From assembly GCF_900302455.1 (NCBI RefSeq), contig NZ_ONZG01000014.1, forward strand, positions 62,001 to 126,000: a stretch of DNA of 64,000 nt. Reading direction: 5' to 3'. Positions 19,822-35,867 of the stretch are shown in pieces. The translations under genes were made by a program, and so were the position numbers. Position 1 is the first letter of the stretch, and each line of letters starts with the position of its first letter. This DNA is from Falsiruegeria mediterranea M17. Lineage in GTDB: Bacteria > Pseudomonadota > Alphaproteobacteria > Rhodobacterales > Rhodobacteraceae. The notes beneath the pieces are model-generated. The model saw only the letters and a program-made list of their open reading frames with translations, did not search any database and had not been told where the DNA came from.

Positions 19822-19822
19822 G

Positions 19823-21400: not shown

Positions 21401-21518
21401 GCGGTACTGCGCGCAAAAGAACAGAACCGCCGGGGTTTCGATTGCGCCGGTGCTGTCAGGACGCACGGGCCATTCCCCAAAAGTCAGCGCCAGGGTTAAT
21501 GCGTGTTGCGGTCGTTCC

Positions 21519-22190
21519 CTAGTCGCGGTCCACTTCTTTCAACCCTTCGATCTGCAGATCAAATCCAGCCTGAATGTGGGAAGTGAATGTTTCAAGCGCT
21601 TCGGTGACATCCCCGGTCGCGATGGCATCGACGAGCGTCAAGTGGTCACCCAAAGACATTGTGATGTCCACATTTTCGATGGCGGAAAACAGGTGAAACG
21701 CCATCGCCTTGCCCCAGATCATGTCGAACATGTCCAACAAGAACTTGTTGCCCGCTTCGACCATAAAGGCGCGGTGAATACGTCGGTTCGCGACAAAGTA
21801 GTCACGGGTGGTGGGGTTTGTCAGATTCTCTTCGCGGCGAATGAGGTCTCGCAGGCCATCAAGCACTTCGCGCTCAGCGTGAACCGCAAGAATACGCGCG
21901 GCTTGCCCTTCGATTGCAGCGCGGGCTTGATAGAGTTGACGAACCTCGGCCTGGTCCATACGGGCCAGTCGAAAACCACCGCTTGCGGCAACTTCCAGAA
22001 CGCCTTCGGTTTCCAACCGCATCAGGGCTTCGCGCACAGGCGTTCGGCTGATGTTCAATTCAGCGGCCAGCTTTTCCTGCACCAGCCGATCTTCGGCCGA
22101 GATGTCACGGCTCATGATCGCTTCGACCAGTTGGTCATAGACTTCATCGGCCAGCCGTCTGCGTTGTGTTTTGATCTGTTTCAGAGCCAC
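21519..22190 (-). CDS. GntR family transcriptional regulator (FCD/FadR subfamily)
   Basis: This 223-residue regulator has an N-terminal winged helix (RLADEVYDQLVEAIMSRDI, then LNISRTPVREALMRLETEGVLEV) and an all-helical FCD ligand domain, including a metal-binding-type His in NRRIHRAF and later His residues. It is divergent from the amidotransferase gene at 22319, with the palindrome TACTGTATACAGTA between them. FCD-type GntR proteins commonly bind TGTATACA-like palindromes, and the same motif recurs before three other transcription units up to 34.5 kb. It is the natural candidate regulator of the whole amine/BMC island. Confidence 0.9.
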   Translation of the reverse strand: MALKQIKTQRRRLADEVYDQLVEAIMSRDISAEDRLVQEKLAAELNISRTPVREALMRLETEGVLEVAASGGFRLARMDQAEVRQLYQARAAIEGQAARILAVHAEREVLDGLRDLIRREENLTNPTTRDYFVANRRIHRAFMVEAGNKFLLDMFDMIWGKAMAFHLFSAIENVDITMSLGDHLTLVDAIATGDVTEALETFTSHIQAGFDLQIEGLKEVDRD

Positions 22191-22275
22191 TCGGAGCCTC
22201 TCTTTCGGTGTTTTATGAATTCTGTATTCAAAAAAGCAGCGGGTGCCAAGGCGAATGGGCTTGCTATTGGCCGTG

Positions 22276-22294
22276 TACTGTATACAGTATACAG
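22276..22294. promoter_or_regulatory. Operator copy 1 (TGTATACAGTATACA)
   Basis: This contains the perfect 14-bp palindrome TACTGTATACAGTA (22276-22289) and the 15-bp motif TGTATACAGTATACA at 22279-22293. It lies 25 bp upstream of the MgsA-like ATG and about 90 bp upstream of the divergent GntR gene. Matching sites are at 26124, 27688 and 34491. Confidence 0.7.
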
Positions 22295-22318
22295 ATGTGA
22301 TTGAAAAGGGAGCTCTTC

Positions 22319-23263
22319 ATGTGTGGAATCGCTGGACGGATTCTGGCAGCGCCCGGGCGCGTTGGGGCCGACTTGGTGGACCTGATGGATGCACAGGAAC
22401 ATCGAGGCGCGGACAGCACCGGGTTTGCAATATACGGATTGCCGCGAGAGACGGGATACGTCCTGCGGGGCATGGGTTTTGACAAATCCCGGCAAGGCGC
22501 TGATCTGGATGCCTTTGAAGCGGTCTTGAAGGAACACGGCGCCGACTTCCTGTCTGATCCGAAAATCCTGACGGACGAGAACCGGCACTATTGCTTTCGT
22601 ATGGAAATCTCGGACCCGACCGATCTGCAAGCCTGGGTGCGGGATGCGGATGAGTTGACGGATCGCATCGAGATTCAATCCTGCGGCCGTAGCCTAGAGA
22701 TCATCAAGGACATCGGCGGAGCCGAAGGCGTATCCGAGAAACATGGCGTTCGCGACATGATCGGCACACATGGGCTGGGCCACGCAAGACTGGCGACCGA
22801 AAGCTCAGTTTTGCCAAATGCGTCACACCCGTTTTGGGCGCGGCCCTTTTCGGACGTGGCAATCGTGCACAACGGCCAGATCACCGACTACTTCACCTGG
22901 CGCGATAAGCTGACCCGGATGGGCTATCGCTTTTTGACCGAAAACGACAGCGAGTTGATTGCTGTTTGGGTCAGCGACCAGATGAAAGCAGGTCTGACGA
23001 TGGAGCAGGCTTTGAAGAAGTCGATTACCTCAATTGACGGGGTGTTCACCTACATGATCGCAACACCAGGCGGGATCGGGTTTGCCAAGGATCGGTTCGC
23101 CATGAAGCCGCTGGTGGTGGTCAATCGCAACGGCGATCTGGCAGCCGCAACCGAAGAACAGGCTGTGCGCCGGGTGATGACCGAAGAATGTGACGTGATC
23201 AACTATGACGGCCCCTCGCTGACCGGCATCTGGGGCGTCGGAAATCGGAGTCTGGCGGCATGA
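22319..23263 (+). CDS. Class II glutamine amidotransferase, N-methylglutamate synthase subunit A / GlxB-like
   Basis: This is a 314-residue Ntn-type glutamine amidotransferase. MCGIAGRI places the nucleophile at Cys2, so the start at 22319 is preferred over an in-frame upstream codon. Later motifs EHRGADSTGFAIYG, GTHGLGHARLATES and VHNGQITDY form the ammonia-releasing glutaminase site. It corresponds to the first domain of glutamate synthase GltB, split as a separate subunit as in MgsA of N-methylglutamate synthase and GlxB of Sinorhizobium. It is translationally coupled to the next gene (ATGA overlap). The role is to supply ammonia or amine from glutamine or a gamma-glutamylamide. Confidence 0.85.
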   Translation: MCGIAGRILAAPGRVGADLVDLMDAQEHRGADSTGFAIYGLPRETGYVLRGMGFDKSRQGADLDAFEAVLKEHGADFLSDPKILTDENRHYCFRMEISDPTDLQAWVRDADELTDRIEIQSCGRSLEIIKDIGGAEGVSEKHGVRDMIGTHGLGHARLATESSVLPNASHPFWARPFSDVAIVHNGQITDYFTWRDKLTRMGYRFLTENDSELIAVWVSDQMKAGLTMEQALKKSITSIDGVFTYMIATPGGIGFAKDRFAMKPLVVVNRNGDLAAATEEQAVRRVMTEECDVINYDGPSLTGIWGVGNRSLAA

Positions 23264-23973
23264 GCAACGCGGCAAGACAGACAGATGAAATCGTCATCGA
23301 GGTTGGCCAGCGGCATATTCGCGAAGTGAACCAGGATATCATGGCGGCCTGCGCCACGGGGCGACCAATACGCGTGGTGAATACGTTGTCACGGCACAAT
23401 CTGGGCGTGGGACTGCCCGACAACGTGGACATAACCTTTGAAGGCTCGGTCGGATACTACTGCGGTGGGCTGAACACCGGCGCCAATATCACAATCGAAC
23501 GCAACTGCGGTTGGGCTGCGGGCGAGGGGATGGCCAAGGGACACATCACCATTGGCGGCTATGCCGGCATGTCCTGCGGCGCTGCGATGATCGGCGGTAC
23601 GATCCACGTCAAAGGCGATGCGGGCCCGCGCGTCGGCGTCGCGATGAAGGGCGGCAACATCGTGGTCGAAGGCAAGATCGGCTATCAGTCCGGCTTCATG
23701 GCGCATGCCGGACGGATCATTGCGCTTGGCGGGGCAGGTGAATCCTGTGCAGACGCCTTGTGGCAAGGCGAGGTCTGGGTTGCCGGTGGAATCGACAGCC
23801 TTGGTGTGGACGTCGACGTGATCGAACCCACGCCGGAAGAGGTGGCCGAGGTCGATGCGATCCTTGATCCTCTGGGGCTGGTCGACAGCTCTCGTAACTG
23901 GCGCAAATTGGTGTCTGGCCAGCGCCTTTGGTATTTTGAAAGCAGGGACGCAAGCGCATGGCTCATGATCTGA
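23260..23973 (+). CDS. GXGXG-domain subunit, N-methylglutamate synthase subunit B / GlxC-like
   Basis: This 237-residue protein is made largely of right-handed beta-helix repeats with repeated Gly patterns (FEGSVGYYCGGLNTGANI, YAGMSCGAAMIGGTI, GDAGPRVGVAMKGGNIVVEG). It matches the C-terminal GXGXG domain of glutamate synthase as a free-standing subunit. It probably links the amidotransferase and FMN synthase subunits in the complex and has no catalytic residues of its own. It overlaps the upstream gene by 4 bp and the downstream gene by 16 bp. Confidence 0.85.
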   Translation: MSNAARQTDEIVIEVGQRHIREVNQDIMAACATGRPIRVVNTLSRHNLGVGLPDNVDITFEGSVGYYCGGLNTGANITIERNCGWAAGEGMAKGHITIGGYAGMSCGAAMIGGTIHVKGDAGPRVGVAMKGGNIVVEGKIGYQSGFMAHAGRIIALGGAGESCADALWQGEVWVAGGIDSLGVDVDVIEPTPEEVAEVDAILDPLGLVDSSRNWRKLVSGQRLWYFESRDASAWLMI

Positions 23974-25382
23974 GTAAACCCTATGACTATCCGTTCGATG
24001 TCGCCTCCGAGGATGAAATCCGGTTCCGCGACGCGGGTGCCGTCGATGGTCGTCCGGCGGGCGTGCCATCCTCATATGACGAAGGCGGGTCGACCAGATG
24101 GACACCCGAGGCGATCTCGGAAGTGCACGCGTTGGCCCAGCTTGGGCGTTACCAGGTTCGCGGTTACAACACGTTCAACAAGCAGATGCCGACCTTTGAT
24201 GATCTGACGTTTGTTCCGGCAACGATGACTCGTCTGCCGTTGGAGGGGTATCGCGAGAGCTGCGATACAACCACCGTTCTGGGTGGCGGACGCGGATTGG
24301 TCGAGCGTCCGCTGGAATTGAAAATCCCGATCTACATCGCATCGATGTCATTTGGCGCGCTATCGGCTTCGGCAAAAGCGTCACTGGGCTATGGGGCCTC
24401 GAAAGTGGGCACCATGACCTGCACGGGCGAAGGCGGCATGCTGGAAGAGGAGCGCGAAGCCTCCCAACGGTTGCTCTATCAGATGTCGCCTGCCCGTTAT
24501 GGCGTGGATCTGGATCACCTGCGCCGCGCGGACGCGCTGGAGATCGTCGTGGGGCAGGGGGCCAAACCCGGCACGGGCGGTCTGCTGCTTGGCATGAAGG
24601 TGAGCCCGCGCGTCAGTGAAATGCGAACCTTGCCCGAGGGGGTCGATCAACGTTCGACCATCCGGCACCCAGATTTCCTGGGCGCGGATGATCTGGCGGT
24701 CAAGATCGAGGAGCTGAGGATTGCGACGAACTACCAGGTGCCGATCTTCATCAAAATGGGCGCAACTCGGCCACGGTTCGACGTAGCGGTTGCCGCAAAG
24801 GCGGGCGCGGACGTAGTTGTTGTAGATGGGGCTGAGGGCGGAACCGGAGCTTCGCCGGAACTGCTTCTGAACCACACGGGCATTCCGACCATGAGCGCCA
24901 TTCGCGCAGCGCGAGAGGCGTTGGACGAATGCGGGATGAGCGGTAAGGTGTCTCTTGTCGCGGCGGGCGGTATCCGCTCGGGCGTGGATGCTGCCAAGTG
25001 CCTGGCGCTTGGGGCGGACGCGGTGATGATTGGTAACGCGGCAATGGTTGCATTGGGATGCAACAGCCCACGGTACCTGGAGGATTATCAGGCCTTAGGC
25101 ACCTCGCCAGGCGCTTGCCACCACTGCCACACGGGTCGCTGCCCAGTTGGGGTTGCCACACAAGACCCAGATCTTGAAGCGCGGATGAACCCGAATGCTG
25201 GCGCCGAACGGGTTGCCCGATATCTGACTGCGATGACGATGGAGATCACGGCACTGGCCAAGGCCTGCGGCAAATCCTCGGTCCACAACTTGGAAACCGA
25301 AGATCTGCGCGCGCTGAGCTTTCAGGCGTCGGCCTTTACCGGCGTCAAGATGGCCGGCATCGACAGGGCCTATGACTGGTGA
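23958..25382 (+). CDS. FMN-binding glutamate synthase-like subunit (N-methylglutamate synthase subunit C / GlxD-like)
   Basis: This 474-residue protein matches the synthase domain of GltB. It has LKIPIYIASMSFGALSASAK, KPGTGGLLLGMKVSPRVSEMR, the FMN-site VVVDGAEGGTGASPELLLNH, and the iron-sulfur-type cysteine cluster ACHHCHTGRCPVGVATQ. It would transfer an amine or ammonia to 2-oxoglutarate. With the two preceding subunits it forms a complete split glutamate-synthase-like enzyme. Whether the product is glutamate or an N-alkyl-glutamate cannot be told from sequence. No GltD-like NADPH subunit is adjacent, as is usual for MgsABC. Confidence 0.85.
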   Translation: MAHDLSKPYDYPFDVASEDEIRFRDAGAVDGRPAGVPSSYDEGGSTRWTPEAISEVHALAQLGRYQVRGYNTFNKQMPTFDDLTFVPATMTRLPLEGYRESCDTTTVLGGGRGLVERPLELKIPIYIASMSFGALSASAKASLGYGASKVGTMTCTGEGGMLEEEREASQRLLYQMSPARYGVDLDHLRRADALEIVVGQGAKPGTGGLLLGMKVSPRVSEMRTLPEGVDQRSTIRHPDFLGADDLAVKIEELRIATNYQVPIFIKMGATRPRFDVAVAAKAGADVVVVDGAEGGTGASPELLLNHTGIPTMSAIRAAREALDECGMSGKVSLVAAGGIRSGVDAAKCLALGADAVMIGNAAMVALGCNSPRYLEDYQALGTSPGACHHCHTGRCPVGVATQDPDLEARMNPNAGAERVARYLTAMTMEITALAKACGKSSVHNLETEDLRALSFQASAFTGVKMAGIDRAYDW

Positions 25383-26074
25383 GGATTGCAGTTCTCGAAT
25401 TGACGGGGCATCCGCTACCGCTGCTCGAGGGGCTGCCGCGCACATCGCGGCAGATCCGCGACTGGCTGGCACCGCATTTGCCCGAAGCTGAATTTACTTC
25501 GGTCGATGTTGTGGACGGCGCGCCGTTGCCCGCGTTCTCGGATTTTGACGGGGTCGTGGTCGGAGGGTCCGAATTCGGGGTCTACGACAACACAGAGTGG
25601 ATGCAGCCCCTCCGTGATTTTCTGGAAGGATGTCGCGCGCAAGCCAAGCCTGTTTTCGGCATCTGCTTTGGTCATCAGATCATGGCTGATGTCTATGGCG
25701 GCAAGGCCGAGAAGGCCGAGGTGGGCAACATTGTCGGCGCCCGTGGGTTCGACTATGACGGAACCCGTGTGGATGGCTATGTCTGGCACCAGGATCAGGT
25801 CACATGCGTTCCACCCTCTGCCCGTGTCACAGGTGCTGCCGACCACTGTCCCGTTGGGGCGCTGGACTATGCCTTCCCGGCACGGTCGGTGCAGTTTCAT
25901 CCTGAATATCAGGCGCACCATTTGCGCGACCTGTTCGCGCGGGGACGCGACATTTTCCTTACGGGGCAGGAGGCAGACGATGGGCTGGCCTCACTTGAGA
26001 GCTCCCGCGTGCCGCAGGACCTGGCTGCCGCGCAAGCCGTGGAGCTATTTCGCGGTACTTTCACCCAAAAATGA
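25379..26074 (+). CDS. Class I glutamine amidotransferase-like hydrolase
   Basis: This 231-residue triad amidotransferase has the nucleophile elbow GICFGHQIMADV, and His and Glu in VQFHPEYQ. It is a stand-alone GATase1, like GMP-synthase-type amidotransferases and distantly PuuD, which hydrolyses gamma-glutamyl amides. A GTG start at 25379 overlaps the stop of the upstream subunit, indicating coupling. In an island that also encodes a PuuA-like gamma-glutamylating enzyme, the most coherent role is hydrolysis of a gamma-glutamyl intermediate to recover glutamate. This is inference. Confidence 0.7.
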   Translation: MRIAVLELTGHPLPLLEGLPRTSRQIRDWLAPHLPEAEFTSVDVVDGAPLPAFSDFDGVVVGGSEFGVYDNTEWMQPLRDFLEGCRAQAKPVFGICFGHQIMADVYGGKAEKAEVGNIVGARGFDYDGTRVDGYVWHQDQVTCVPPSARVTGAADHCPVGALDYAFPARSVQFHPEYQAHHLRDLFARGRDIFLTGQEADDGLASLESSRVPQDLAAAQAVELFRGTFTQK

Positions 26075-26121
26075 GATCCTGAACCCCTGTTTGATCCTGA
26101 TCAAACCCGGCTTTGACACGA

Positions 26122-26140
26122 TGTGTATACTGAATACACA
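26122..26140. promoter_or_regulatory. Operator copy 2 (TGTGTATACTGAATACACA)
   Basis: The 7-bp arms TGTGTAT/ATACACA flank ACTGA. The 15-bp core TGTATACTGAATACA (26124-26138) is the reverse complement form of copies 3 and 4. It lies 21 bp before the DUF6455 gene, overlapping its likely promoter. Confidence 0.7.
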
Positions 26141-26159
26141 ACGTGGAGGAGGCCGCGAG

Positions 26160-26510
26160 ATGTCGGGATACGCAGATTTCTTTCAGAAAATGGTACGCGT
26201 CATCAGTGCGCCGCATAATGAACACCTGAGTGGCCGAGAGCTTTCGGATCTTGGGCTCTCGCGTGCGGATTTGGCGATGCTTCGATCCGGTGCACCGCAG
26301 GCCCGCGAACGCATAGTTGCGATGGCCGAACAATTCGGACTAACCGAAGCGGATCTGAATGCGCATTCGGGGCTCGGGTTAGAACTGGCAGAAAAATGCG
26401 GACATTGCCTGCAGGCCGAAACCTGCCGCGACGCCATTCGCGCAGGCGCGGCTTTGCCACAGACCAAATGCCCCAATGCCGACATTTACCGCGTCTTGGC
26501 CCAGGGTTAG
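26160..26510 (+). CDS. DUF6455 family protein
   Basis: This 116-residue protein begins MSGYADFFQKMVRVI and ends with a conserved cysteine pattern, CGHCLQAETCRDAI and, further on, KCPNADIY, characteristic of DUF6455 proteins common in Rhodobacteraceae. Three or four cysteines could bind a metal or iron-sulfur cluster. A helical middle (LSGRELSDLGLSRADLAML) looks like a protein-interaction region. Strong GGAGGAGG lies before the ATG. It has its own copy of the island operator and overlaps the oxidase gene tail-to-tail by 3 bp. Function unknown. Confidence 0.75.
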   Translation: MSGYADFFQKMVRVISAPHNEHLSGRELSDLGLSRADLAMLRSGAPQARERIVAMAEQFGLTEADLNAHSGLGLELAEKCGHCLQAETCRDAIRAGAALPQTKCPNADIYRVLAQG

Positions 26511-27646
26511 CGACCGCTAGGGCTTTCCTTTGGACTCAGCTTTTTTCGGCCAGAGACTTTGAACCGATCGGCGGTGCCAAAGTCCTTGAGACCGACACCT
26601 GCCGCAAATTCCGCAAACACCGGAGCGTGTTTGAAAAGATGGCCCGAGCATCCACCGGCAAACAGCACGTTTTCATGCTCTGGATGCCAGTCGACAATGA
26701 AATGCGTGTCCGGGGTCAGGATGATCTGGTTGAACTTGGAATCCACAACGCGCTGCCCCTCAAGCCCCGGAAGCCGGTGCCGGATATAGCTTCGGGTGCG
26801 GCCCAGTGTTTCCTGGCGGATCAGCCGTTCGTCATTGTCCAGATCGATCTTGTCGGGGATCACAACGGCCGCCTTGACACCCGACCCTTCGGACGATGGC
26901 AGACCAAACGACCCCTGTCCGTGATCAATCCAGCAGGGCATGCGGGTCATGTCGAACTCTTCGGACCCGTCGGGTGTCGAGGTATAGAGGACATTGACGC
27001 CCACAACTGTAGAGATTGGCTTGATCGTTCTTGGGAACATGTCGGCCATCCAAGGGCCGGTTGCGATGACGATCAAATCCGCCTCTAGCGGGTTGCCGTC
27101 CATCATTGGGCGCTCTGACCCGTCGGTGGTGACGCGACCGCGTTGCACCTTGCCGCCAGCCTGTCGGAACAGGCTCAGCCCGGTCAGCACACAACGATGC
27201 GCCATCAGCATGCCGGCCTCGGGTTCGAACAGGGCGTATTCGATGTCGGGTACGCAAAACTGGGGAAACCGCGATTCGATGTCTTGTTGACCAAACTTGT
27301 AGTAGGGCACGCCAACGCGATCAAAAGTCTCGGCGGTGGCGTCTTCCCAGTCGCTGTGGCCGCCCGCCGCCAGAATCAATGCGCCGCATTCATACATCAG
27401 GTTCTGCCCGCTTTCGGCCTGCAGCTCGAGCCAGCGCAGGCGGCTCTCGCGCGCCCACCGTGTATAGAACTCGTCACGTCCGGAAATCGCGCGGATCACC
27501 CGGTTGTAATCTGTTGAAGATGCACGGGAATGTCCGGGTTCCCACCTGTCTATCAGCGTCACGGACTCGCCGCGCCGTTGCAGTGTAAGCGCCGTCATGA
27601 CGCCAACAATGCCACCTCCGACAACGATAACCGAGCTTTTGGACAT
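26507..27646 (-). CDS. FAD-dependent oxidoreductase, monomeric sarcosine oxidase/DAO family
   Basis: This 379-residue flavoprotein has an N-terminal dinucleotide site (VIVVGGGIVGVMTALTLQRRG, then LIDRWEPGHSRASSTDYNR) and a C-terminal FAGGCSGHLFKHAPVFAEF, the SoxA/MTOX-type flavin and substrate block. It should oxidise a C-N bond of a secondary amine or N-substituted amino acid, giving an aldehyde or imine plus H2O2. It is divergent from the PuuA-like synthetase with an operator copy in between, so it can be viewed as the PuuB/N-alkylglutamate oxidase equivalent of the island. The ATG at 27646 is used; the longer frame upstream covers the operator. Confidence 0.82.
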   Translation of the reverse strand: MSKSSVIVVGGGIVGVMTALTLQRRGESVTLIDRWEPGHSRASSTDYNRVIRAISGRDEFYTRWARESRLRWLELQAESGQNLMYECGALILAAGGHSDWEDATAETFDRVGVPYYKFGQQDIESRFPQFCVPDIEYALFEPEAGMLMAHRCVLTGLSLFRQAGGKVQRGRVTTDGSERPMMDGNPLEADLIVIATGPWMADMFPRTIKPISTVVGVNVLYTSTPDGSEEFDMTRMPCWIDHGQGSFGLPSSEGSGVKAAVVIPDKIDLDNDERLIRQETLGRTRSYIRHRLPGLEGQRVVDSKFNQIILTPDTHFIVDWHPEHENVLFAGGCSGHLFKHAPVFAEFAAGVGLKDFGTADRFKVSGRKKLSPKESPSGR

Positions 27647-27684
27647 GGCGCAGATTTTCCTTGTTTCCTGTCTGTCTTTGTGAA

Positions 27685-27703
27685 TACTGTATACAGAATA
27701 CAG
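27685..27703. promoter_or_regulatory. Operator copy 3, bidirectional promoter of oxidase and BMC operon
   Basis: This contains TGTATACAGAATACA at 27688-27702. It lies midway between the divergent starts at 27646 (minus) and 27738 (plus), so one bound regulator could control both the oxidase and the shell operon. Confidence 0.7.
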
Positions 27704-27737
27704 CAAATATAAAGCCAAAAACAGGGAGCGCACGCAA

Positions 27738-29030
27738 ATGAGTTCGGGGTTTGATCTGCCCGAGGGCACACATACCGTCATACTTGGTGTTGGGGACCTC
27801 AACGGCATCATGCGCGGCAAACGCATTCCGGCCAGCCACTGGGATCACGTCTGCAAGAGCGGCAATGCACTGTCGATTGCGCTTATGGCGATCGATATGA
27901 CCTGCGATGTCTGGGACACACCATATGTCAATTTCGACAATGGCTACCCTGACATGCATCTCTTTCCGATGACCCAGCCGGTCGCCGTTCCCTGGGAACC
28001 CGGCGTGGCGGTTTGCTTTGGCCGTGCCGAGGGTATGGATCACAAACCTGTGCCCATCGATCCGCGTCAGGCGTTGGTGCGGCAAATGGATCGCGCCCGC
28101 GACATGGGCTTTGAGGTGAATGTCGGCACCGAGCTGGAGTTCTATCTGCTGGACCCGGAAACCGGTCAGCCGCGCGACAGCGGCATTCAGGTCTATGGCC
28201 TGGGTCGCGCCGCCCGGATGGAACATATCGTCGGCCCGATCCGTCAGCAGATCAACGAATGCGGCATTCCTATCGAACAATCGAACCCGGAATACGCGGC
28301 AGGTCAGGTTGAGGTGAACATCAAATACGGCGAGGCTCTGCAGGCAGCGGACCGAGTTGTGCTGTTCAAATCATTGATCCGCCAGTTGGGCATTGCGCAC
28401 GGCTATCTTGCGACCTTCATGCCAAAGCCCTTCTTTGATCAGTCGGGCAACGGGTTTCACACGCATTATTCGCTGTGGAAGGATGGCAAAAACGTTTTTG
28501 CCGACAACGGCAAGATCAATGACATCGGCAAATCCTTTATTGCCGGCTTGCAGCAGCGCATGTGCGAAACGGCGATCTGTGGCAGCGGCACGGTCAATGG
28601 CTATCGTCGACGGCAGCCCTATACCTTCTGCCCGATCAACACGAGCTGGGGGTATGACAACCGCACCGTTGGCATTCGGGTAATCGAAGGGGCCGACAGT
28701 GCCGTGCGCGTTGAAAAACGCGATGCCGGGGCGGACGCCAACCCCTATCTGCTGTTGGCGGCCGAAATTGCAGCCGGGCTGGATGGGATCGAACAGGGGC
28801 TGACCCCCTCTGACCCCACAACTGGCAACGGATACGAGGAAGGCATCGGCGATCCCATCCCGACCGACCTTCCCACGGCCATCGAACTTGCGCGCGGATC
28901 GGACTGGCTGCGTGATGTTCTGGGTGAAATGCTCTGGGAACTGGTTCTGCAACAAGGCGAACGCGAGTTGGAGTTCTTTAACCAACAAGTCACCCAGGTC
29001 GAACTGGACCGCTATCTGAGGACCTTCTGA
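27738..29030 (+). CDS. Glutamine synthetase family protein, PuuA/IpuC/GmaS-type gamma-glutamyl-amine synthetase
   Basis: This 430-residue GS-fold enzyme has an N-terminal GVGDLNGIMRGKRIP (PuuA-like), the metal site GTELEFYLLD, QVEVNIKYG, the catalytic GNGFHTHYSLW, and the C-terminal RVIEGADSAVRVEKRDAGADANPYL. The DLNG-RGKR N-terminus and the short length favour the gamma-glutamyl-amine synthetases over housekeeping GlnA. It would use ATP to couple glutamate to an amine. It is the first gene of the BMC operon; the shell pentamer gene overlaps its stop by 1 bp. The amine is unknown: methylamine, ethanolamine, isopropanolamine-like and polyamines are all possible. Confidence 0.82.
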   Translation: MSSGFDLPEGTHTVILGVGDLNGIMRGKRIPASHWDHVCKSGNALSIALMAIDMTCDVWDTPYVNFDNGYPDMHLFPMTQPVAVPWEPGVAVCFGRAEGMDHKPVPIDPRQALVRQMDRARDMGFEVNVGTELEFYLLDPETGQPRDSGIQVYGLGRAARMEHIVGPIRQQINECGIPIEQSNPEYAAGQVEVNIKYGEALQAADRVVLFKSLIRQLGIAHGYLATFMPKPFFDQSGNGFHTHYSLWKDGKNVFADNGKINDIGKSFIAGLQQRMCETAICGSGTVNGYRRRQPYTFCPINTSWGYDNRTVGIRVIEGADSAVRVEKRDAGADANPYLLLAAEIAAGLDGIEQGLTPSDPTTGNGYEEGIGDPIPTDLPTAIELARGSDWLRDVLGEMLWELVLQQGERELEFFNQQVTQVELDRYLRTF

Positions 29031-29296
29031 TGCAGTTGGGCAAGGTCGCTGGTACCGTCACGGCAACGGCCAAGGATTCCAGGTTGGTCGGAACAAAGCT
29101 CCTTTTGACGGACCTGGTTGATGGCAAAGGCAGCGTGCTCGACCCTGCCCGTATCGCGGTCGATACCTGCGGCGCAGGGGTCGGAGACATGGTGATGGTT
29201 GTCAGCGGCTCAGCGGCTCGGATGGCGGCGGGTTTGTCTACGACACCCGTGGATCTGGCCATCATTGCGATTGTCGACCGCGTCTCGACGTCCTGA
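29030..29296 (+). CDS. Microcompartment vertex protein, BMC-P (EutN/CcmL family)
   Basis: This 88-residue beta-barrel pentamer protein starts MQLGKVAGTVTATAKDS, then LVGTKLLLTDLVD, typical of EutN/CcmL. The conserved GVGDMVMVVSGSAAR and C-terminal IVDRV correspond to the GAG-loop and last strand. Pentamers cap the vertices of icosahedral shells. The start overlaps the stop of the gamma-glutamyl synthetase gene (TGATG). Only one BMC-P is present in the window, which is enough for a shell. Confidence 0.9.
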   Translation: MQLGKVAGTVTATAKDSRLVGTKLLLTDLVDGKGSVLDPARIAVDTCGAGVGDMVMVVSGSAARMAAGLSTTPVDLAIIAIVDRVSTS

Positions 29297-29338
29297 AACA
29301 CGACACACACAAAACACTTATCTTCGGAGGAATAGAAA

Positions 29339-29647
29339 ATGGCGAAACCAGTGGCAGGGCAGATGGCCCTGGGCATGATCGAAACGCGTGGCCTTGTCGG
29401 CGCGATCGAGGCGGCGGATGCGATGGTCAAGGCGGCCAGCGTGGTGATCGTTGGCCAGACCAAAGCAGGCGGCGGGTTGGTGACCACCCTTGTGCGCGGC
29501 GAAGTCGGCGCGGTCAAGGCCGCAACAGATGCGGGCGCAACGGCAGCCAACAAAGTGGGCGAAGTGGTTTCGGTCCATGTGATCGCACGGCCGCATGACG
29601 AGCTTGAAGCCATCATCGACGGGCTGGGTGCCGGATCGTCGGCCTGA
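29339..29647 (+). CDS. Microcompartment shell protein, BMC-H (EutM/PduA-like)
   Basis: This 102-residue single BMC domain protein has [20 protein letters not shown], then [21 protein letters not shown] and [12 protein letters not shown]. The pore-loop region reads TKAGGG, compared with the common KIGSG of PduA/EutM, which may change pore chemistry. It forms the hexamers of shell facets. CGGAGGAATAG is a good ribosome binding site 42 bp after BMC-P. Length and motifs are complete. Confidence 0.95.
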
Positions 29648-29671
29648 TCCGACCCCCTTTGAGGAGATACC

Positions 29672-30856
29672 ATGTCAGCCGGTTTCGAGGATTTCACGCG
29701 CGCGGTGACACGCAGCGCGACACGGGATGCGCCCGTCAGCCAAAGGTTTGACCGCATAACGGTGCTGGGCGGCGGGCCGGATGCCCGTCTGCTGGCCGCG
29801 CTGTGTCTGGCCGAAGGGGCCGAGGTCACGTTGTTCTCGGCCTATGGGGCAGAGTTGACGCTTCTGACTCAATCCTCGGGTATCGGCATTCGGGGCGAAG
29901 GGCCCGTGGGCACATATCAGGTGGACCGCGACGGGCCGTCGATCCGTACTACGGCGGAACTGGATGCGGCAGTGCGTGACGCGCAGGCGATCTTTCTGAC
30001 TGGGCCGATCCATAAACAGCGGACTTATGCCATGGTTCTGGCCGATCATCTGAGTGATGGTCAGGTTCTTGTGCTGGCGCCTGGCCGGTCTCTTGGCGCG
30101 GTCGAAGCTGCCTGGATGCTGCGCATTGGCGGGTGTTCAGCGGATGTCACTCTGGTCGAAGTGCAGGGTCTGCCGTTCTGGTATCAGGCCGAAGGGGCCG
30201 GTTTGACGCTGACACAGGCGGCGCCAATGGCGGCCGCCACTCTCCCGCGTGGGCGAGAGAACGTTCTTGCAGCGTTGACGCCATATCTATCCAACCTCCA
30301 GCCGACAGAGTCCGTCCTGGCCTCAGGCTTCGCCGATCTTTCGGCTGCGGTTGAGATACCGACCCTGATCCTGGGTGGCGCAGGCTTGGGCTCTGGCGGC
30401 CCGGACATCCCGATGGGAGGCGTACCGCTGAACGAAAACCAGACCTTCGCCGCGCTCATTGGGCCTGATCAGCGCGAGGTCATCTGTGGGCTGGCTGACG
30501 AGCGACGACGGGTTGCATCGGCCTTTGGCATTCGGACCCTGCCTGACACCGATGATTGGCTCACAACCTTTGCCGGAACTGAACGGGGACCCACCGCGCG
30601 TCCTATTCCCGATAGCCAAGCTGCGCGTCAACTGATGCGCGACGGCGTGTTGGGGTCGCTGGTACCGCTCGTCTCGGCCGCACAGCTCGCAGGTATTCCA
30701 GCGCCTTTGACAGAAAGCCTCATTTTGATGACCGACCGCATCCTTGGCGCAGATGTTGCCGCAGCAGGGCGCAGGTTGGACACCATCGGAATATCCGCAG
30801 GCGATGTCGAACAGGCACGCCGTATCTTTGACACGATCGCCACCGGAGACATGTGA
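29672..30856 (+). CDS. NAD(P)-dependent opine/octopine dehydrogenase-like protein in BMC operon
   Basis: This 394-residue protein has an N-terminal Rossmann segment RITVLGGGPDARLLAALCLAEG, a middle PGRSLGAVEAAWML (opine dehydrogenase-like LxPGxxxGAxE) and a C-terminal helical domain. Opine dehydrogenases reductively couple an amino acid to a 2-oxo acid or, in reverse, oxidise an N-carboxyalkyl amino acid. The first glycine motif is GGGPDA rather than GxGxxG, and similarity is distant, so the reaction is uncertain. It is embedded between the BMC-H and acylating ALDH genes, with its stop overlapping the next start, so a role in or at the compartment is likely. Confidence 0.6.
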   Translation: MSAGFEDFTRAVTRSATRDAPVSQRFDRITVLGGGPDARLLAALCLAEGAEVTLFSAYGAELTLLTQSSGIGIRGEGPVGTYQVDRDGPSIRTTAELDAAVRDAQAIFLTGPIHKQRTYAMVLADHLSDGQVLVLAPGRSLGAVEAAWMLRIGGCSADVTLVEVQGLPFWYQAEGAGLTLTQAAPMAAATLPRGRENVLAALTPYLSNLQPTESVLASGFADLSAAVEIPTLILGGAGLGSGGPDIPMGGVPLNENQTFAALIGPDQREVICGLADERRRVASAFGIRTLPDTDDWLTTFAGTERGPTARPIPDSQAARQLMRDGVLGSLVPLVSAAQLAGIPAPLTESLILMTDRILGADVAAAGRRLDTIGISAGDVEQARRIFDTIATGDM

Positions 30857-32235
30857 TGGACGCAGATCTGAAATCCATCGCCGCCGCGCGGCGCGCTGCT
30901 GAAACCGCATTCGAGGCTTACCGTGCTTTTCTGGGAACCGACCCGGCGCAAGTGGATGCCATCGTTGACGCCATGGCCCGTGCCATCGAACCCGAAGCGG
31001 AACGGCTGGGCCAGTTGGCGGTTGAGGAAACCGGCTATGGCAACGTGCCAGACAAGCGGGTCAAGAACCTGTTCAATGCCTTGTCTGTTGCGGATTACCT
31101 GCGGGACGTCACAACATTGGGCATGTTGTGGCGGGACGACGCCACCAAGATCGCCGCCTTTGGCGAGCCGATGGGCGTGGTGGCCGCGCTGGTACCGGTC
31201 ACCAACCCAACTTCGACAATCATCTTCAAGGTTCTGTCTGCGGTAAAAGCTGGCAATGCCATTGTCTGTGCCCCGCATCCACGCGGTGTAAGTTGCGGGA
31301 TCGAAACTGTGCGCATCATGGCGCGCGTTGCCGAACAGATGGGCGCCCCCAAAGGGCTGATCCAATGCCTGGATGCGGTTACCATTCAAGGCACGGCCGA
31401 ACTGATGCGCCACCGGCGAACCTCGGTCGTGATGGCCACAGGTGGGCCCGCAATGGTCAAGGCTGCCTATTCCAGCGGCAAGCCGACGCTTGCGGTGGGG
31501 GCAGGAAACGTGCCCTGCTATGTCCACAAATCCAAAGCCCGTGATCTGGCCGAAGTGGCCGAGATGATCGTGACCTCGAAAAGTTTTGACTACGGCACTG
31601 CCTGTGTCAGTGAACAGGCAGTAGTGGCCGATCCCGAAATCGCGCGCGACCTGCGGCATGAGTTGAAGCTCAAAGGAGCTTACTTCTGCACCCCGGCCGA
31701 GGCAGATCGGCTGGCCGGTGTCATCTTCAAGGGCGCGCAGGCGATGGATCCCGAGCGGGTCGGGCAAAGCCCGCAGGCTCTGGCCGACGCCGCGGGTTTC
31801 TCAATTCCCCCGCGCACCCGTTGTCTGGTGTCGGAGGAAACCGAAGTGGGCTGGCAACGCCCACTGTCGGCGGAGAAGCTGAACCCGGTCCTGGCTTTCT
31901 ATGAGGCAAAGTCCACCGATCACGGCATCGAATTGGCGCAATCTATCGCCAAGTTCGAGGGCTGGGGTCATTCATCGGTCATTCATTCCGACGACGCGGA
32001 CGTGGTGGCGCGGTTTGCCACAGTGCCCACCGGCAGGGTGCTGGTGAACACACCGGGGATCATGGGTGGCATGGGGTATTCAACTGATCTGGAGCCGTCC
32101 TTCATGCTGGGCACCGGCACCTGGTCGGGGTCGATCACCTCGGACAACGTGACAGCCCTGCATCTCATCAACATCAAACGGGTCGCTTATGAAAGCAGAC
32201 CCTGGCGCGACATTTACGAGGAGTATGGCGCATGA
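30856..32235 (+). CDS. CoA-acylating aldehyde dehydrogenase (EutE/PduP/AdhE-N type), metabolosome core enzyme
   Basis: This 459-residue aldehyde dehydrogenase shows VTNPTSTIIFKVLSAVKAGNA, VGAGNVPCYV and the catalytic block KSFDYGTACVSEQ (Cys250), the pattern of CoA-acylating enzymes. It converts an aldehyde plus CoA and NAD to acyl-CoA and NADH, the signature step of metabolosomes. ATG at 30856 overlaps the previous stop (TGATG); a GTG three bases earlier is also possible. No obvious PduP-like N-terminal targeting helix is seen, though the first 20 residues are helical. No phosphotransacylase (PduL) gene accompanies it in this window. Confidence 0.88.
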   Translation: MDADLKSIAAARRAAETAFEAYRAFLGTDPAQVDAIVDAMARAIEPEAERLGQLAVEETGYGNVPDKRVKNLFNALSVADYLRDVTTLGMLWRDDATKIAAFGEPMGVVAALVPVTNPTSTIIFKVLSAVKAGNAIVCAPHPRGVSCGIETVRIMARVAEQMGAPKGLIQCLDAVTIQGTAELMRHRRTSVVMATGGPAMVKAAYSSGKPTLAVGAGNVPCYVHKSKARDLAEVAEMIVTSKSFDYGTACVSEQAVVADPEIARDLRHELKLKGAYFCTPAEADRLAGVIFKGAQAMDPERVGQSPQALADAAGFSIPPRTRCLVSEETEVGWQRPLSAEKLNPVLAFYEAKSTDHGIELAQSIAKFEGWGHSSVIHSDDADVVARFATVPTGRVLVNTPGIMGGMGYSTDLEPSFMLGTGTWSGSITSDNVTALHLINIKRVAYESRPWRDIYEEYGA

Positions 32236-32855
32236 GCGAGATTACCATCCGGGCGCTGATGCAGATCGACAACCTGCAACCCAAATTCGCGGCCTACAAT
32301 GGCGCGACGGTGCAAGGGTCGGTTCCCTTGTCGGGCGATACCGTGCTGATCGGAGAGTTTGCGCCGGGCAACGGGGTGTTTTCACTGATTGACCGGGCGC
32401 TCAAGGCGTCTTCGGTCGAGGCGACAACACAGATGGTGGAACGCGAGTTCGGGTTTTTCATCCTGCGCTCGCCATCCAACGCCGAGGTGTCTGCCGCGCG
32501 GGATGCGATGCTTGCTGAACTGGGCGCCTCTATGTCGGATCGTCTGAAGCCGGCCATCACCTCTACCCAGATCATCACCAGCGTCGAACCCTATCAGGCA
32601 CAGCTGTTGAACAAATGGCGCAAGGGTGCATTGATCGTGCCGGGGCAGACGCTTGGCATCGTCGAGTGTGCGCCCGCGGCCTATATTTCGATCGCCGCAA
32701 ATGAGGCCGAGAAAGCCGCCGAGATCGACATCGTCGAAGTGCGCGCCGTAGGACGGTTTGGTCGCCTGTTCATTTCAGGATCAGAAAACTCTGTCAAAAC
32801 CGCTGTCGAGGCTGCAACCCAGGCCATCGAAGCTGTGGATGGACAAGACGCCTGA
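32232..32855 (+). CDS. Microcompartment tandem-domain shell protein, BMC-T
   Basis: This 207-residue protein has two BMC domains in tandem. The first is degenerate (VLIGEFAPGNGVFSLIDRAL, then FGFFILRSP) and the second canonical (TLGIVECAPAAYISIAANEAEKAA, then VGRFGRLFISGSENSVKTAVEAA). Both keep standard rather than permuted topology, as in PduT-type trimers. No CxxC motif for a pore Fe-S cluster is present, unlike PduT. It would form pseudohexameric trimers with a large central pore. It overlaps the ALDH gene by 4 bp and the dehydrogenase gene by 1 bp. Confidence 0.88.
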   Translation: MSEITIRALMQIDNLQPKFAAYNGATVQGSVPLSGDTVLIGEFAPGNGVFSLIDRALKASSVEATTQMVEREFGFFILRSPSNAEVSAARDAMLAELGASMSDRLKPAITSTQIITSVEPYQAQLLNKWRKGALIVPGQTLGIVECAPAAYISIAANEAEKAAEIDIVEVRAVGRFGRLFISGSENSVKTAVEAATQAIEAVDGQDA

Positions 32856-34036
32856 TGGCTGCGCCGCGTGTCATAGGCTCGGACGCGGTCGAGGATGCCC
32901 GCCGTCGCGGCAGGATCGTATTCGAGGTCTTGCCCGGCGACATCGTAACCGCGCTTGCCCGCGAAACGGCGGAACGGGTTGGCATCGCTCTCGTTGACGG
33001 CCCGCTGGAACGTCCGCAGGCACCCCGCACGGACGGCGCGGTTTCGATGCGCCGGGTGTTGTATCGCCGATCGCCCAAATGGGTCGCGCCATCACGCGCG
33101 CCGCGCAAGGCACGCAGACTTGGCAAACTCGCCTTGGTTGGGGCAGGGGGCGTTGGCGGCAATGTCGCGCATCTGGCGGCGATGGCAGATATCGCTGATG
33201 AAATTGCGTTGATCGACATCACTCCGGGTCTAGCCGCTGCGACCGCACTGGACCTCAACCACACGTCTGGGATCACCGGCGCGCGCGCGCGATGTGTCGG
33301 GGGCGAGACGATGGAGCTGGTGGCCGGAGCCGAGGTGGTTGTCGTCACTGCCGGACGGGCTCGAAGACCGGGAATGACCCGCGCGGATCTGATCGACGTC
33401 AACGCGCGTGTCATTCGGCAGGCTGCCGAAGCGATCCGGTCTGATGCGCCAAATGCCATCGTGATCGTCGTCACCAATCCGCTGGATGAGATGACGGTTG
33501 AGATGCTGCGGGCAACTGGATTTCCTCGTGAGCAAGTTCTGGGCATGGCCGGAACGCTCGACAGCAGCCGGTTCCGCAATGCGCTTGCCATGGCCTCAGG
33601 CGTCACGCCGGCTGATGTCGAGGCGTTCACCCTTGGGAGCCATGGTGATGAGATGGCCCCGATCCCCAGCCGTGCGCGGATCAAGGGACGACCGCTGGAC
33701 GTGTTCCTGTCAGCGGATCAGATCGAGGCCTGCGTCAAAGACGTGATCACGGGCGGCGGTCAGGTGGTTGCGCTCAAGAAATCGGGCTCGGCAACCATCG
33801 CCCCGGCCCATGCATCGATCGAGTTGATCGATCACATCCGGGATGCCCGCACCGGCCCGGTTCCGGTGTCGATCATGTTGCAGGGTGAATACGGGATCGA
33901 TGGTGTTGTTCTGGGTGTGCCAGCCCATTTGGGGGCGGGCGGCCTGGTCGAGGTTGAAGAGCTGCGGTTGACCGAAACGGAGCAGGTGGCCTTGCAAGCC
34001 GCGGCCGAGGCGATCCGCGAAAGGCTGGGCCTGTGA
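32855..34036 (+). CDS. Malate/lactate dehydrogenase-like enzyme with EutQ-like N-terminal extension
   Basis: In this 393-residue protein, residues about 1-55 (VIGSDAVEDARRRGR, then DIVTALARETAERVGIAL) look like the short helix-strand segment found at the N-termini of EutQ and other BMC-associated proteins. The remainder is an LDH/MDH fold: LVGAGGVGGNVA, GRARRPGMTRADL, VTNPLDEMT, GMAGTLDSSRFR and GSHGDEM with the catalytic His. Arg residues at both substrate-loop positions favour a malate-type dicarboxylate or an atypical 2-hydroxy acid. It may recycle NAD(H) inside the shell in place of an alcohol dehydrogenase. The extension as an encapsulation tag is inference. Confidence 0.78.
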   Translation: MAAPRVIGSDAVEDARRRGRIVFEVLPGDIVTALARETAERVGIALVDGPLERPQAPRTDGAVSMRRVLYRRSPKWVAPSRAPRKARRLGKLALVGAGGVGGNVAHLAAMADIADEIALIDITPGLAAATALDLNHTSGITGARARCVGGETMELVAGAEVVVVTAGRARRPGMTRADLIDVNARVIRQAAEAIRSDAPNAIVIVVTNPLDEMTVEMLRATGFPREQVLGMAGTLDSSRFRNALAMASGVTPADVEAFTLGSHGDEMAPIPSRARIKGRPLDVFLSADQIEACVKDVITGGGQVVALKKSGSATIAPAHASIELIDHIRDARTGPVPVSIMLQGEYGIDGVVLGVPAHLGAGGLVEVEELRLTETEQVALQAAAEAIRERLGL

Positions 34037-34443
34037 CCCTGCGCAAATGGAAGTCTGGCGGGCGTTTCGAAGAGGTTGCTTCATACTCTCGCGCCAAACG
34101 CATCGGCCCCTTTGTTTGGATTGCCGGAACCACCGCAATTGAACCCTCTGGCCGGATCCACGCGCCGGGGGATGTTGGGGCACAGACCCGCTACATCCTA
34201 TCTCGCATCAATGAAGCACTAGGTGAGGTCGGCGCAGAAATGCGCCACGTGGGCCGCGTGCGGGCCTATCTGACTGATTTGTCCCAGGCCGGCGCTTTTG
34301 CGCAGGCGCACGGCGAGGTGTTCAAAGGGATCGATCCCGTGCTGACCGCAGTTCAAGCGGGCCTGACCCAGCCGGGTTTGGTGGTAGAAATCGATGTGGA
34401 CGCAGTAATCCACGACCAAAACGGCAAAATCAACGGTTTCTGA
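34033..34443 (+). CDS. RidA/YjgF family enamine/imine deaminase
   Basis: This 136-residue RidA-superfamily protein has RFEEVASYSRAKRIGPFVWIAGTTA, GDVGAQTRYILSRINEAL and a C-terminal GLVVEIDVDAVI. The Arg in the C-terminal region that contacts the substrate carboxylate in canonical RidA is not in its usual VE-E context, so it may be one of the Rid subfamilies with other substrates. GTG start at 34033 overlaps the upstream stop. It ends the BMC operon. In an amine-oxidising pathway it could remove reactive imines formed by the flavin oxidase or PLP enzymes. Confidence 0.82.
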   Translation: MTLRKWKSGGRFEEVASYSRAKRIGPFVWIAGTTAIEPSGRIHAPGDVGAQTRYILSRINEALGEVGAEMRHVGRVRAYLTDLSQAGAFAQAHGEVFKGIDPVLTAVQAGLTQPGLVVEIDVDAVIHDQNGKINGF

Positions 34444-34487
34444 ACATGAGTTTTCAAGAAAGGATTTGATCGAACCACCTTCTTGTG

Positions 34488-34505
34488 TACTGTATACAGA
34501 ATACA
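34488..34505. promoter_or_regulatory. Operator copy 4, upstream of the Liv-type transporter
   Basis: TGTATACAGAATACA (34491-34505) is identical to the core of copy 3. It lies 34 bp before livJ and after the RidA stop, so the transporter has its own promoter but shares control with the catabolic genes. Confidence 0.7.
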
Positions 34506-34539
34506 AGAAAGGCATAATGAGACACAGGGAGCTAATGTG

Positions 34540-35820
34540 ATGATCAAGACAACGCTACTCAGCGGGACATGCCTCGCGCTCATGGCCTCGGCGGCCGCAG
34601 CAGACATAAAGGTTGGATTTATTGGATCGCTATCTTCGGATACCGGCCTGTCGACCCTGCGCGGGGCAGAAATCGCGATCGAGGAACTCAACGCCAATGG
34701 CGGCGTGATGGGTGAACAGATTACGCTGGTTTCAGCCGACACCGGACAGGACCCGACCGAAGGCGTTCGCGCCTATGAATATCTTGCCGAAACCGAAGAG
34801 GTGGATTTCATCATCTCGGGCTCGATTGACGATGTGTCGTTGGGCTGGCTGCCTCGAATGCAGGAATATCAGATTCCGACGCTGGACACTTGGACATCTT
34901 ACATCGGCATCATCGACATGGTGATCGAAGATCCCGAAAGCATGGCGCCCTATTTCATGAACATCGCTTCGGACGAGGCGTTGGCCACGCTCTACATCAA
35001 CTTTGGCGCGGACGTTCTAAAGGGCAAAATGGGCTGGGATTCCGTGGTCATTCTGGCCGAAGACACCGCCTTTGGTGAAGCAATCACCGGTCTGGTGACC
35101 GAGGCCCTGGCACCTGTTGCCGGTATCGAAGTCAAGGAAATCATCACATACGACGTGGCGACCGTTGATTTCGCACCGATCTTCAGCCGGGCGCAGGACA
35201 CGGGGGCCGATTTCATCTATCAGGTCTCGTCAGTGAATTCGCAGGTGGTTTCATCGCAGTATGTGAAGCTGCAAGTGCCAATGGCGATGACGGGCGTGAA
35301 CGTATCCGCGCTTGGCATGGAATATTGGGAAGACACCGGCGGTGCCGGTGGGGGTATCTCGACCTTGTCGCCTGTCCCTTCGGTTGGCTTCCGTCTGGAT
35401 CCGGCCAGTCAGACCTTTGTCGATACTTATCAGGCCAAATATGACAGCCGCCCGCTGCTGCCCCACTTCAACGGTTTCAACGCCTATCACGGCCTGAAAC
35501 AGGCGATGGCGGCAGCCGAAGAGGCCGGTGGCTTTGACAATGTCAAAGGCTGGGCCGATGCGATGAAGAAGCAGGATCTGGTTTTGGAGTTGGATGGGCA
35601 ATTGTGGCTGCGCTACGCCTTCTGGGGCGATGACGAAGTTGAGCCCGTCACAGGCCGGACCTATCCGCACAACATCCGCTTTGACCTGTCCGAGCCGTTT
35701 GATGACGCGGCCCCGTCCATGGTTGTGGTCCAGTGGTACGAGGATGGCACCTCCGCTGTGGTCTACCCCGAGAAGTACGCCACGGGCGATTTCACGGTAC
35801 CCAGCTGGGTCAAGAAATAA
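34540..35820 (+). CDS. livJ: Periplasmic substrate-binding protein of a Liv/urea/amide-type ABC transporter
   Basis: This 426-residue type I periplasmic binding protein has a signal peptide MIKTTLLSGTCLALMASAAAA and a mature start DIKVGFIGSLSSDTGLSTLRGAEIAIEELN, typical of the AmiC/UrtA/LivJ branch. It is longer than LivJ of E. coli and nearer the urea/amide receptor size. The ATG at 34540 is chosen for GGGAGC upstream and the signal peptide. The ligand is unknown; its shared operator with the BMC genes suggests it brings in the amine or amide degraded by the island. A strong hairpin follows the stop. Confidence 0.85.
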   Translation: MIKTTLLSGTCLALMASAAAADIKVGFIGSLSSDTGLSTLRGAEIAIEELNANGGVMGEQITLVSADTGQDPTEGVRAYEYLAETEEVDFIISGSIDDVSLGWLPRMQEYQIPTLDTWTSYIGIIDMVIEDPESMAPYFMNIASDEALATLYINFGADVLKGKMGWDSVVILAEDTAFGEAITGLVTEALAPVAGIEVKEIITYDVATVDFAPIFSRAQDTGADFIYQVSSVNSQVVSSQYVKLQVPMAMTGVNVSALGMEYWEDTGGAGGGISTLSPVPSVGFRLDPASQTFVDTYQAKYDSRPLLPHFNGFNAYHGLKQAMAAAEEAGGFDNVKGWADAMKKQDLVLELDGQLWLRYAFWGDDEVEPVTGRTYPHNIRFDLSEPFDDAAPSMVVVQWYEDGTSAVVYPEKYATGDFTVPSWVKK

Positions 35821-35845
35821 TCCAGCCGCATCAATAGCTTGAACC

Positions 35846-35867
35846 GGGCGCGCTGTGACGCGCGCCC
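35846..35867 (+). other. GC-rich hairpin between livJ and livH
   Basis: GGGCGCGC (35846-35853) and GCGCGCCC (35860-35867) form a perfect 8-bp stem with a 6-base loop and no T tract. It probably protects or attenuates the message so that more binding protein than permease is made. Equivalent hairpins occur after tctC and nrtA. Confidence 0.6.

Follow-up and report, generated by a model that had tools for sequence, protein, structure and literature searches.

Methylamine can be used through the N-methylglutamate pathway, which consists of the ligase GmaS, the synthase MgsABC and the dehydrogenase MgdABCD. Among bacterial microcompartments (BMCs), the RMM/Aut type is predicted to degrade an amine, 1-amino-2-propanol, via an aldehyde, and the available part of the source describes no glutamyl chemistry for it (PMC6620236). 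In the PVM type, which acts on fucose and rhamnose, an enzyme of the lactate/malate-dehydrogenase family is proposed to regenerate NAD+ (available part of PMC4207490), and many catalogued metabolosome types carry an aldehyde dehydrogenase with no obvious signature enzyme (available part of PMC8217296). Here we describe a microcompartment locus of Falsiruegeria mediterranea M17, found at 21519-39121 of a 64,000-nucleotide stretch (contig NZ_ONZG01000014.1, positions 62,001 to 126,000; hereafter the window, whose numbering we use), in which shell genes are joined by genes for a glutamyl-linked amine pathway. With a probability of roughly 0.6, we consider that it encodes a metabolosome for the final, aldehyde-handling stage of that pathway.

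The initial annotation of the window had placed shell genes in one cluster with a PuuA-like synthetase, an aldehyde dehydrogenase, an opine-dehydrogenase-like protein, a malate dehydrogenase (MDH)-like enzyme and RidA, and Pfam matches confirmed every one of these genes in its place. The cluster runs from a glutamine synthetase (GS)-like ligase (Gln-synt_C, PF00120; 27738-29030(+)), proposed here as a gamma-glutamyl-amide synthetase, through the shell vertex BMC-P (EutN/CcmL, PF03319; 29030-29296(+)), the shell hexamer BMC-H (PF00936; 29339-29647(+)), an opine-dehydrogenase-fold protein (ODH; 29672-30856(+), Octopine_DH match below the Pfam cut-off), a CoA-acylating-type aldehyde dehydrogenase (Aldedh; 30853-32235(+)) and the shell trimer BMC-T (PF00936; 32232-32855(+), of two-domain length with one domain recognised by Pfam) to the MDH-like enzyme (Ldh_1; 32855-34036(+)) and a RidA-family protein (Ribonuc_L-PSP, PF01042, an imine hydrolase family; 34033-34443(+)). 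Divergent from it lies a SoxA-like FAD oxidase of the DAO family (sarcosine/N-methyltryptophan oxidases; 26507-27643(-)). The two PF00936 matches are the only ones in the genome (E up to 0.001). BMC-P thus stands together with both BMC-H and BMC-T, as expected of a microcompartment, and the aldehyde dehydrogenase, predicted from its sequence to be acylating, is of the kind expected of a metabolosome.

This gene order, SoxA on the minus strand and then GS, BMC-P, BMC-H, ODH, aldehyde dehydrogenase, BMC-T, MDH and RidA, was the same in 13 of 13 genomes (the window and 12 others). When named genomes were scanned with a BMC-T alignment, 96 relatives emerged, of which 80 were kept; presence was counted in the 60 loci with enough flanking DNA. 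Because the 80 include genomes of the first comparison (e.g., L112 is G002 and L128 is G354) as well as near-duplicates, these counts are not independent. All eight genes from SoxA to MDH were present in 60/60 loci, RidA in 58 and a transporter binding protein in 45. Just one further gene family was common to many loci (47/80; the next commonest occurred in 7), and we read it as the first permease of the transporter. The loci are mostly from Alpha- and Gammaproteobacteria: named-genome relatives include Ruegeria, Sulfitobacter, Hoeflea, Nitratireductor, Phaeobacter, Lentibacter and others, the Gammaproteobacteria are represented by Granulosicoccaceae, Arenicellales and a Thioglobus metagenome-assembled genome (MAG), and the Actinobacteria by Acidimicrobiia MAGs and Nocardioides sp. 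TF02-7.

Co-occurrence was assessed in a sample of 394 genomes of the family. Twenty-one had any BMC-T match, and 12 of these had a close one (at least 76% identity). A SoxA orthologue (E up to 1e-80) was found in exactly those 12 genomes and in no other, and an MgsC orthologue (E up to 1e-170) in 15, namely the same 12 and three more; the hypergeometric probabilities, 4e-23 and 2e-20, are not corrected for relatedness. All 12 other shell genomes checked carried an MgsC orthologue, at 76-99% identity.

The initial annotation had also put the SoxA-like oxidase, an amidotransferase and a split glutamate/N-methylglutamate synthase under the same operator as the shell operon, and this too held up. 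The motif TRTACWGWATACA, with at most one mismatch, gave 13 overlapping matches, where 0.04 were expected, and these fell into four intergenic places. Motif searches placed them in the gap between a GntR/FCD regulator and the mgsA-like gene (22274-22293), before a small gene that begins at 26160 (26124-26138), in the divergent SoxA/GS gap (27681-27702) and before an ATP-binding cassette (ABC) transporter (34484-34505). The exact motif occurs at seven positions in the 5.28 Mb genome, all of them within the locus, and the predicted regulon extends past the originally annotated span of 21519-34443, through the transporter to 39121. Among related loci, the SoxA/GS gap held the operator (at most one mismatch) in 60/66 cases, compared to 0/1320 shuffled gaps.

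Under the first operator lie the genes of the split synthase: an MgsA-like glutamine-amidotransferase (GATase) subunit (Pfam GATase_6; 22301-23263(+), with a likely real start at an internal MCGIAG near 22319), an MgsB-like GXGXG subunit (PF01493; 23260-23973(+)) and an MgsC-like subunit with the glutamate synthase domain (Glu_synthase, PF01645; 23958-25382(+)). The regulator (PF00392 and PF07729; 21519-22190(-)) is divergent to them. The regulator, mgsABC and a class I GATase gene stand alongside the shell locus in 8/13 genomes; the regulator gene adjoins mgsABC in 8/13 shell loci and also in two loci without a shell (L109, L110).

One could suppose that MgsABC and GS serve nitrogen assimilation or some other pathway, that the regulator is merely common, and that the shell takes its aldehyde from elsewhere. 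Consistent with this, mgsABC lies far off or on another contig in 5/13 genomes, and the reactions of the pathway are assigned by analogy. Nevertheless, GS and SoxA stand at the shell operon in all 60 long loci, and the operator, confined in its exact form to this locus of the genome, connects all members of the set. Of the five detached mgsABC sets, four (L104-L107) keep the operator with at most one mismatch; it was not found at the fifth, in G017 (L108). We regard such a separation of functions as improbable.

A counterpart without a shell was found in five genomes: the three additional MgsC-positive genomes of the 394-genome sample and two from a 337-genome sample of the class. In the latter, MgsC matches with E up to 1e-160 came from 14 genomes; we followed the genome's own match and two others (80% and 85% identity) and left out the remaining 11 (56-60%). 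None of the five has a match to the BMC domain (PF00936), and a close ODH is absent from all of them (best 28% identity). All five keep the operator (at most one mismatch), mgsABC and RidA, and all five carry a DAO-family oxidase distinct from SoxA. GS stands beside mgsABC in four of these loci, and a NAD-type aldehyde dehydrogenase is present in four; in the fifth (L111) the contig breaks off within the oxidase gene. For L204, the DNA covered starts at RidA, with the GntR side outside it. AMP-forming acyl-CoA ligases, three in all, occur in two of the five loci, and one of them is closest to MbcS, below the cut-off. In these loci, what looks like the same amine chemistry would end with oxidation of the aldehyde to an acid, which at least two of them would re-activate with ATP, and the ligases suggest an alkyl acid. 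The shell version carries instead the acylating-type aldehyde dehydrogenase together with ODH, MDH and the shell. Pfam searches of non-conserved neighbours, and of extra neighbours of the shell-less loci, gave no clue to the substrate beyond the acyl-CoA ligases, and no substrate could be read from the aldehyde dehydrogenase or binding-protein sequences examined. A large DAO-GcvT-type protein, matched by sarcosine-oxidase-alpha and GcvT models, adjoins one shell-less locus (L110:14087-16579).

We therefore propose a route with methylamine-like rather than Puu logic, because the shell-less genomes retain the operator, MgsABC and RidA with another flavin oxidase and, in four of the five, an ordinary aldehyde dehydrogenase. 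An amine or its derivative would be imported by the ABC transporter and joined to glutamate by the GS-like ligase, giving a gamma-glutamyl-amide. MgsABC would then free the amine and attach it reductively to 2-oxoglutarate, and the SoxA-like oxidase would convert the resulting N-alkylglutamate into glutamate and an aldehyde, with imine hydrolysis sped by RidA. Inside the shell, the acylating aldehyde dehydrogenase would turn the aldehyde into acyl-CoA and NADH, and the MDH-like enzyme, probably with ODH, would regenerate lumenal NAD+, a task usually left to an alcohol dehydrogenase. As the substrate we consider a small alkylamine, larger than methylamine, to be probable. This proposal draws on the gene set, its conservation and co-occurrence, the shared operator, active-site residues and an encapsulation-peptide-like ODH N-terminus, all read from sequence. 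Of the scheme in the initial annotation, the union of a shell and glutamyl-linked amine catabolism within a single predicted regulon is supported, with an acyl-CoA as the plausible end product; its PuuABCD reading is not supported.

By analogy, the best model for the chemistry is the GmaS-MgsABC-oxidase sequence of the N-methylglutamate pathway. The likeness lies in the GS-like ligase, the split MgsABC-like synthase and the proposed oxidation of an N-substituted glutamate; ligase and synthase agree with GmaS and MgsABC at the level of family and are not methylamine-specific. The locus differs in that its oxidase is a single protein resembling monomeric sarcosine oxidase (MSOX), and in the addition of a shell and an acylating aldehyde dehydrogenase; genes for the heterotetrameric MgdABCD dehydrogenase were not recognised by Pfam in 21519-39121. 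One shell genome, G354, has a second Mgs set (51%, 36% and 38% identical) beside another GS, which we read, by analogy, as methylamine-pathway genes. Since that second set sits beside another GS in the same genome, the Mgs set of the locus is a paralogue.

In the alternative Puu-type route, GS would glutamylate the amine, SoxA would act as PuuB on the amine end and a class I amidotransferase would act as PuuD. The GS-like ligase does match the gamma-glutamylputrescine synthetase model, at 204 bits against a cut-off of 650 (its type III NCBIfam match is also below cut-off, and it has relatives in the PDB), and a class I GATase gene (PF00117; 25379-26074(+)) lies within the regulon. However, this GATase, whose top NCBIfam model is PRK09065, under its cut-off, is linked in only 24/60 loci, which makes it accessory; it is a possible gamma-glutamyl hydrolase, and neither its earlier description as a PuuD analogue nor a conserved PuuD-type gamma-glutamyl-GABA hydrolase is borne out. 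The constant presence of MgsC in shell genomes also speaks against the Puu route, as does the acylating aldehyde dehydrogenase, which would seem unsuited to a glutamyl-aminoaldehyde.

SoxA itself resembles sarcosine/N-methyltryptophan oxidases rather than PuuB, the analogue first suggested. Aligned to MSOX, it keeps Arg49, Arg52, Lys265 and Lys348, which we take to function in carboxylate binding and O2 activation, in 67, 67, 67 and 68 of 69 sequences, respectively. The position of Cys315, presumably the covalent-flavin site of MSOX, holds Asn in 54 of the 69 sequences and Cys in 10, so this mark of a covalent flavin is not retained across the family. Judged by these residues, an N-substituted amino acid would fit SoxA better than gamma-glutamyl-putrescine, and we consider the Puu-type route very improbable. 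By hand count, SoxA ends in PSGR in 64/68 loci; three exceptions are without the family's C-terminus altogether and the fourth is the Nocardioides sequence. This conserved tail is a possible docking signal.

On the shell side, the predicted structure of ODH (mean pLDDT 89.6) has an opine-dehydrogenase fold, with PDB entry 1bg6 as the best match (TMq 0.73, E 1.1e-22). Its N-terminus is modelled as a helix at residues 3-13, followed by a stretch with pLDDT under 50 at 13-18 and then the Rossmann fold. F5 is kept in 63/75 and F8 in 61/75 aligned rows, 12 rows being gapped at these positions partly through start choice or contig ends, and in 27 of the 35 scorable rows (37 in total) the amphipathicity of the helix exceeded that of 95% of the sequences made by shuffling it. 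In the model, helix and linker resemble an encapsulation peptide.

These features raise the question of whether ODH, not SoxA, is the aldehyde-producing signature enzyme, oxidising N-alkylglutamate with NAD(P)+ in the lumen while SoxA acts on another N-substituted amino acid. The helix and linker are the clearest of their kind among the proteins of the locus, and opine dehydrogenases, with CENDH (1bg6) nearest in fold, act on secondary-amine N-substituted amino acids. But the position of His202, which we take to be the catalytic His of CENDH, is Glu or Asp in 74/75 ODH sequences; with the His replaced, the chemistry is uncertain and the classical opine reaction not assured. Furthermore, a DAO oxidase is present at each of the five shell-less loci, whose genomes contain no close ODH, so aldehyde would be released there without need of ODH. 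A signature role for ODH thus appears unlikely. We also entertain, tentatively and at rather long odds, an imine/opine metabolosome, in which lumenal ODH would regenerate NAD+ by coupling the aldehyde reductively to an amino acid, with no alcohol formed, and the N-alkyl amino acid would be oxidised again with O2 by SoxA, located at the shell or outside it. Glutamate adducts would then serve the shell as a redox shuttle of its own, and, as part of the same tentative idea, an amine-degrading pathway would occur in nature with and without a shell.

The nearest NCBIfam model of the aldehyde dehydrogenase is the acylating acetaldehyde dehydrogenase TIGR02518 (501 bits against a cut-off of 620), and its catalytic Cys is kept in 78/79 sequences. 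We presume that TIGR02518 is linked to type I aldehyde dehydrogenases and, on this match, class the enzyme as type I. According to the available part of PMC8217296, type I BMC aldehyde dehydrogenases carry a C-terminal extension. In the alignments we saw no C-terminal extension or encapsulation-type tail, so that encapsulation of this enzyme is an assumption. The MDH-like enzyme, assigned by Pfam and NCBIfam, keeps three arginines and a His, which we take as marks of malate dehydrogenases, in 79, 79, 78 and 78 of 79 sequences. Its N-terminal extension of ~88 residues (32855-33120(+)) is conserved across loci, has no Pfam match at 0.01 and is a possible cargo domain.

Several observations weigh against a metabolosome that completes a glutamyl-linked amine pathway. 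Every reaction, the substrate and the choice of encapsulated proteins we infer by analogy, and none of GS, SoxA and the aldehyde dehydrogenase reaches the NCBIfam cut-off of a named enzyme. The missing tail of the aldehyde dehydrogenase and the Glu/Asp of ODH count here as well. MgsC is linked in only 40/60 long loci, and at one shell-less locus (L110) no GS accompanies mgsABC over the stretch read. The operator went undetected in 6/66 SoxA/GS gaps and in the G017 locus; it lies 5' of the mgsA-like gene in only 26/39 loci and, at up to 400 bases, before the binding-protein match in only 16/53. Finally, Pfam recognised neither a phosphotransacylase nor an alcohol dehydrogenase among the genes of 21519-39121, so the full metabolosome core is not present there. 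This would be an incomplete-core ('MIC'-like) metabolosome in which the MDH-like enzyme may act as a substitute.

As for catalogued types, the nearest relatives are loci on a Methylibium petroleiphilum PM1 plasmid and in Rhodococcus oxybenzonivorans, whose assignment to MIC1, a type described in the available part of PMC4207490, is our own. They share the order BMC-P, BMC-H, aldehyde dehydrogenase, BMC-T, MDH-like enzyme, and their BMC-T and aldehyde dehydrogenase are 52-54% and 50-53% identical to those of the window. Unlike the window locus, these loci (L040/L041) encode EutJ together with an alcohol dehydrogenase and a HAD hydrolase, and in the 30 kb of each no match was found to the GS, SoxA, ODH and RidA of the window. 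Membership of the window locus in MIC1 was rejected, an EutJ/MreB-like protein, a zinc alcohol dehydrogenase and a hydrolase not being among its genes. With the PVM type it shares the lactate/malate-dehydrogenase-family enzyme, but the PVM signature aldolase was not found among its genes by Pfam. It resembles RMM/Aut in the predicted degradation of an amine via an aldehyde and differs in its glutamyl chemistry and in that its operator covers no kinase or class III aminotransferase. Membership in RMM/Aut, which calls for an amino-alcohol kinase and a phospho-lyase in the regulon, was rejected as well: class III aminotransferase and APH-type genes do occur at 17576-19821, without the operator, and are linked in 1/7 relatives (G002).

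The gene set was not named in the literature that we searched, where most subscription journals fall outside the coverage. No full text in that search had 'microcompartment' and 'opine dehydrogenase' together, and the co-mention of 'microcompartment' and 'methylglutamate' came from work on formaldehyde in Methylobacterium. The early view that no described BMC type has this set is thus right in that the combination is absent from the described types compared; the locus type may, however, already stand, without a function, among the supplementary types of the 2021 catalogue (e.g., MIC2-MIC7, MUF2-3). The tight regulon, the exact co-occurrence and the existence in nature of a shell-less counterpart yield a substrate class and a signature enzyme that are open to test. 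Should our proposal be true, microcompartments would be tied to the turnover of alkylamines (at sea, judging by many host names), an opine-dehydrogenase-fold protein would become proposed BMC cargo, and nature would offer a comparison of one pathway with and without a shell.

The remaining genes of the predicted regulon are a small protein (26160-26510(+)) with a weak DUF1127 match below the Pfam cut-off and the ABC transporter. Matches to the small protein (query labelled DUF6455) among related loci were disregarded, the query being one base out of frame. The transporter comprises a binding protein of the branched-chain-amino-acid type (PF13458; 34540-35820(+), start chosen from the sequence), permease 1 (35886-36737(+), identified by comparison with relatives), permease 2 (PF02653; 36718-37686(+)), ATPase 1 (37650-38414(+); PF00005 at residues 245-394 of open reading frame (ORF) 37011-38414, within which the start was chosen) and ATPase 2 (PF00005; 38414-39121(+)). 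Permease 1 has an in-frame stop in the window, either a real nonsense change or a sequence error; L112 and L113 match over the same length, and the gene of L045 is intact.

Beyond these limits, we rejected as parts of the system a serine hydroxymethyltransferase gene (39315-40577(-)), matched in 1/57 loci with at least 8.4 kb after BMC-T, and a cluster on the far side of GntR (12995-21055(+)) that encodes a TctC/TctB/TctA transporter, an aldehyde dehydrogenase, a class III aminotransferase, an APH-type kinase and a UPF0261 protein. The latter is a separate catabolic operon without the operator, matched in one of seven relatives, the same-genus G002. An ORF at 21399-22304(+), antisense to the GntR gene, was discarded.

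A second BMC type with paired, nearby BMC-T genes (34-41% identical to that of the window) was seen in 10 of the 394 family genomes (L020-L027, L029-L037), and G017 and G253 carry both types. Elsewhere in the window, genes at 2418-9748(-) for an HpcH/HpaI aldolase, an FAA hydrolase, two aldehyde dehydrogenases and glyoxalase-fold and LigB-type dioxygenases look like homoprotocatechuate-type degradation. At 44561-50803(+), an ANTAR regulator, two NMT1_2 binding proteins and ABC transporter parts resemble nitrate assimilation genes.

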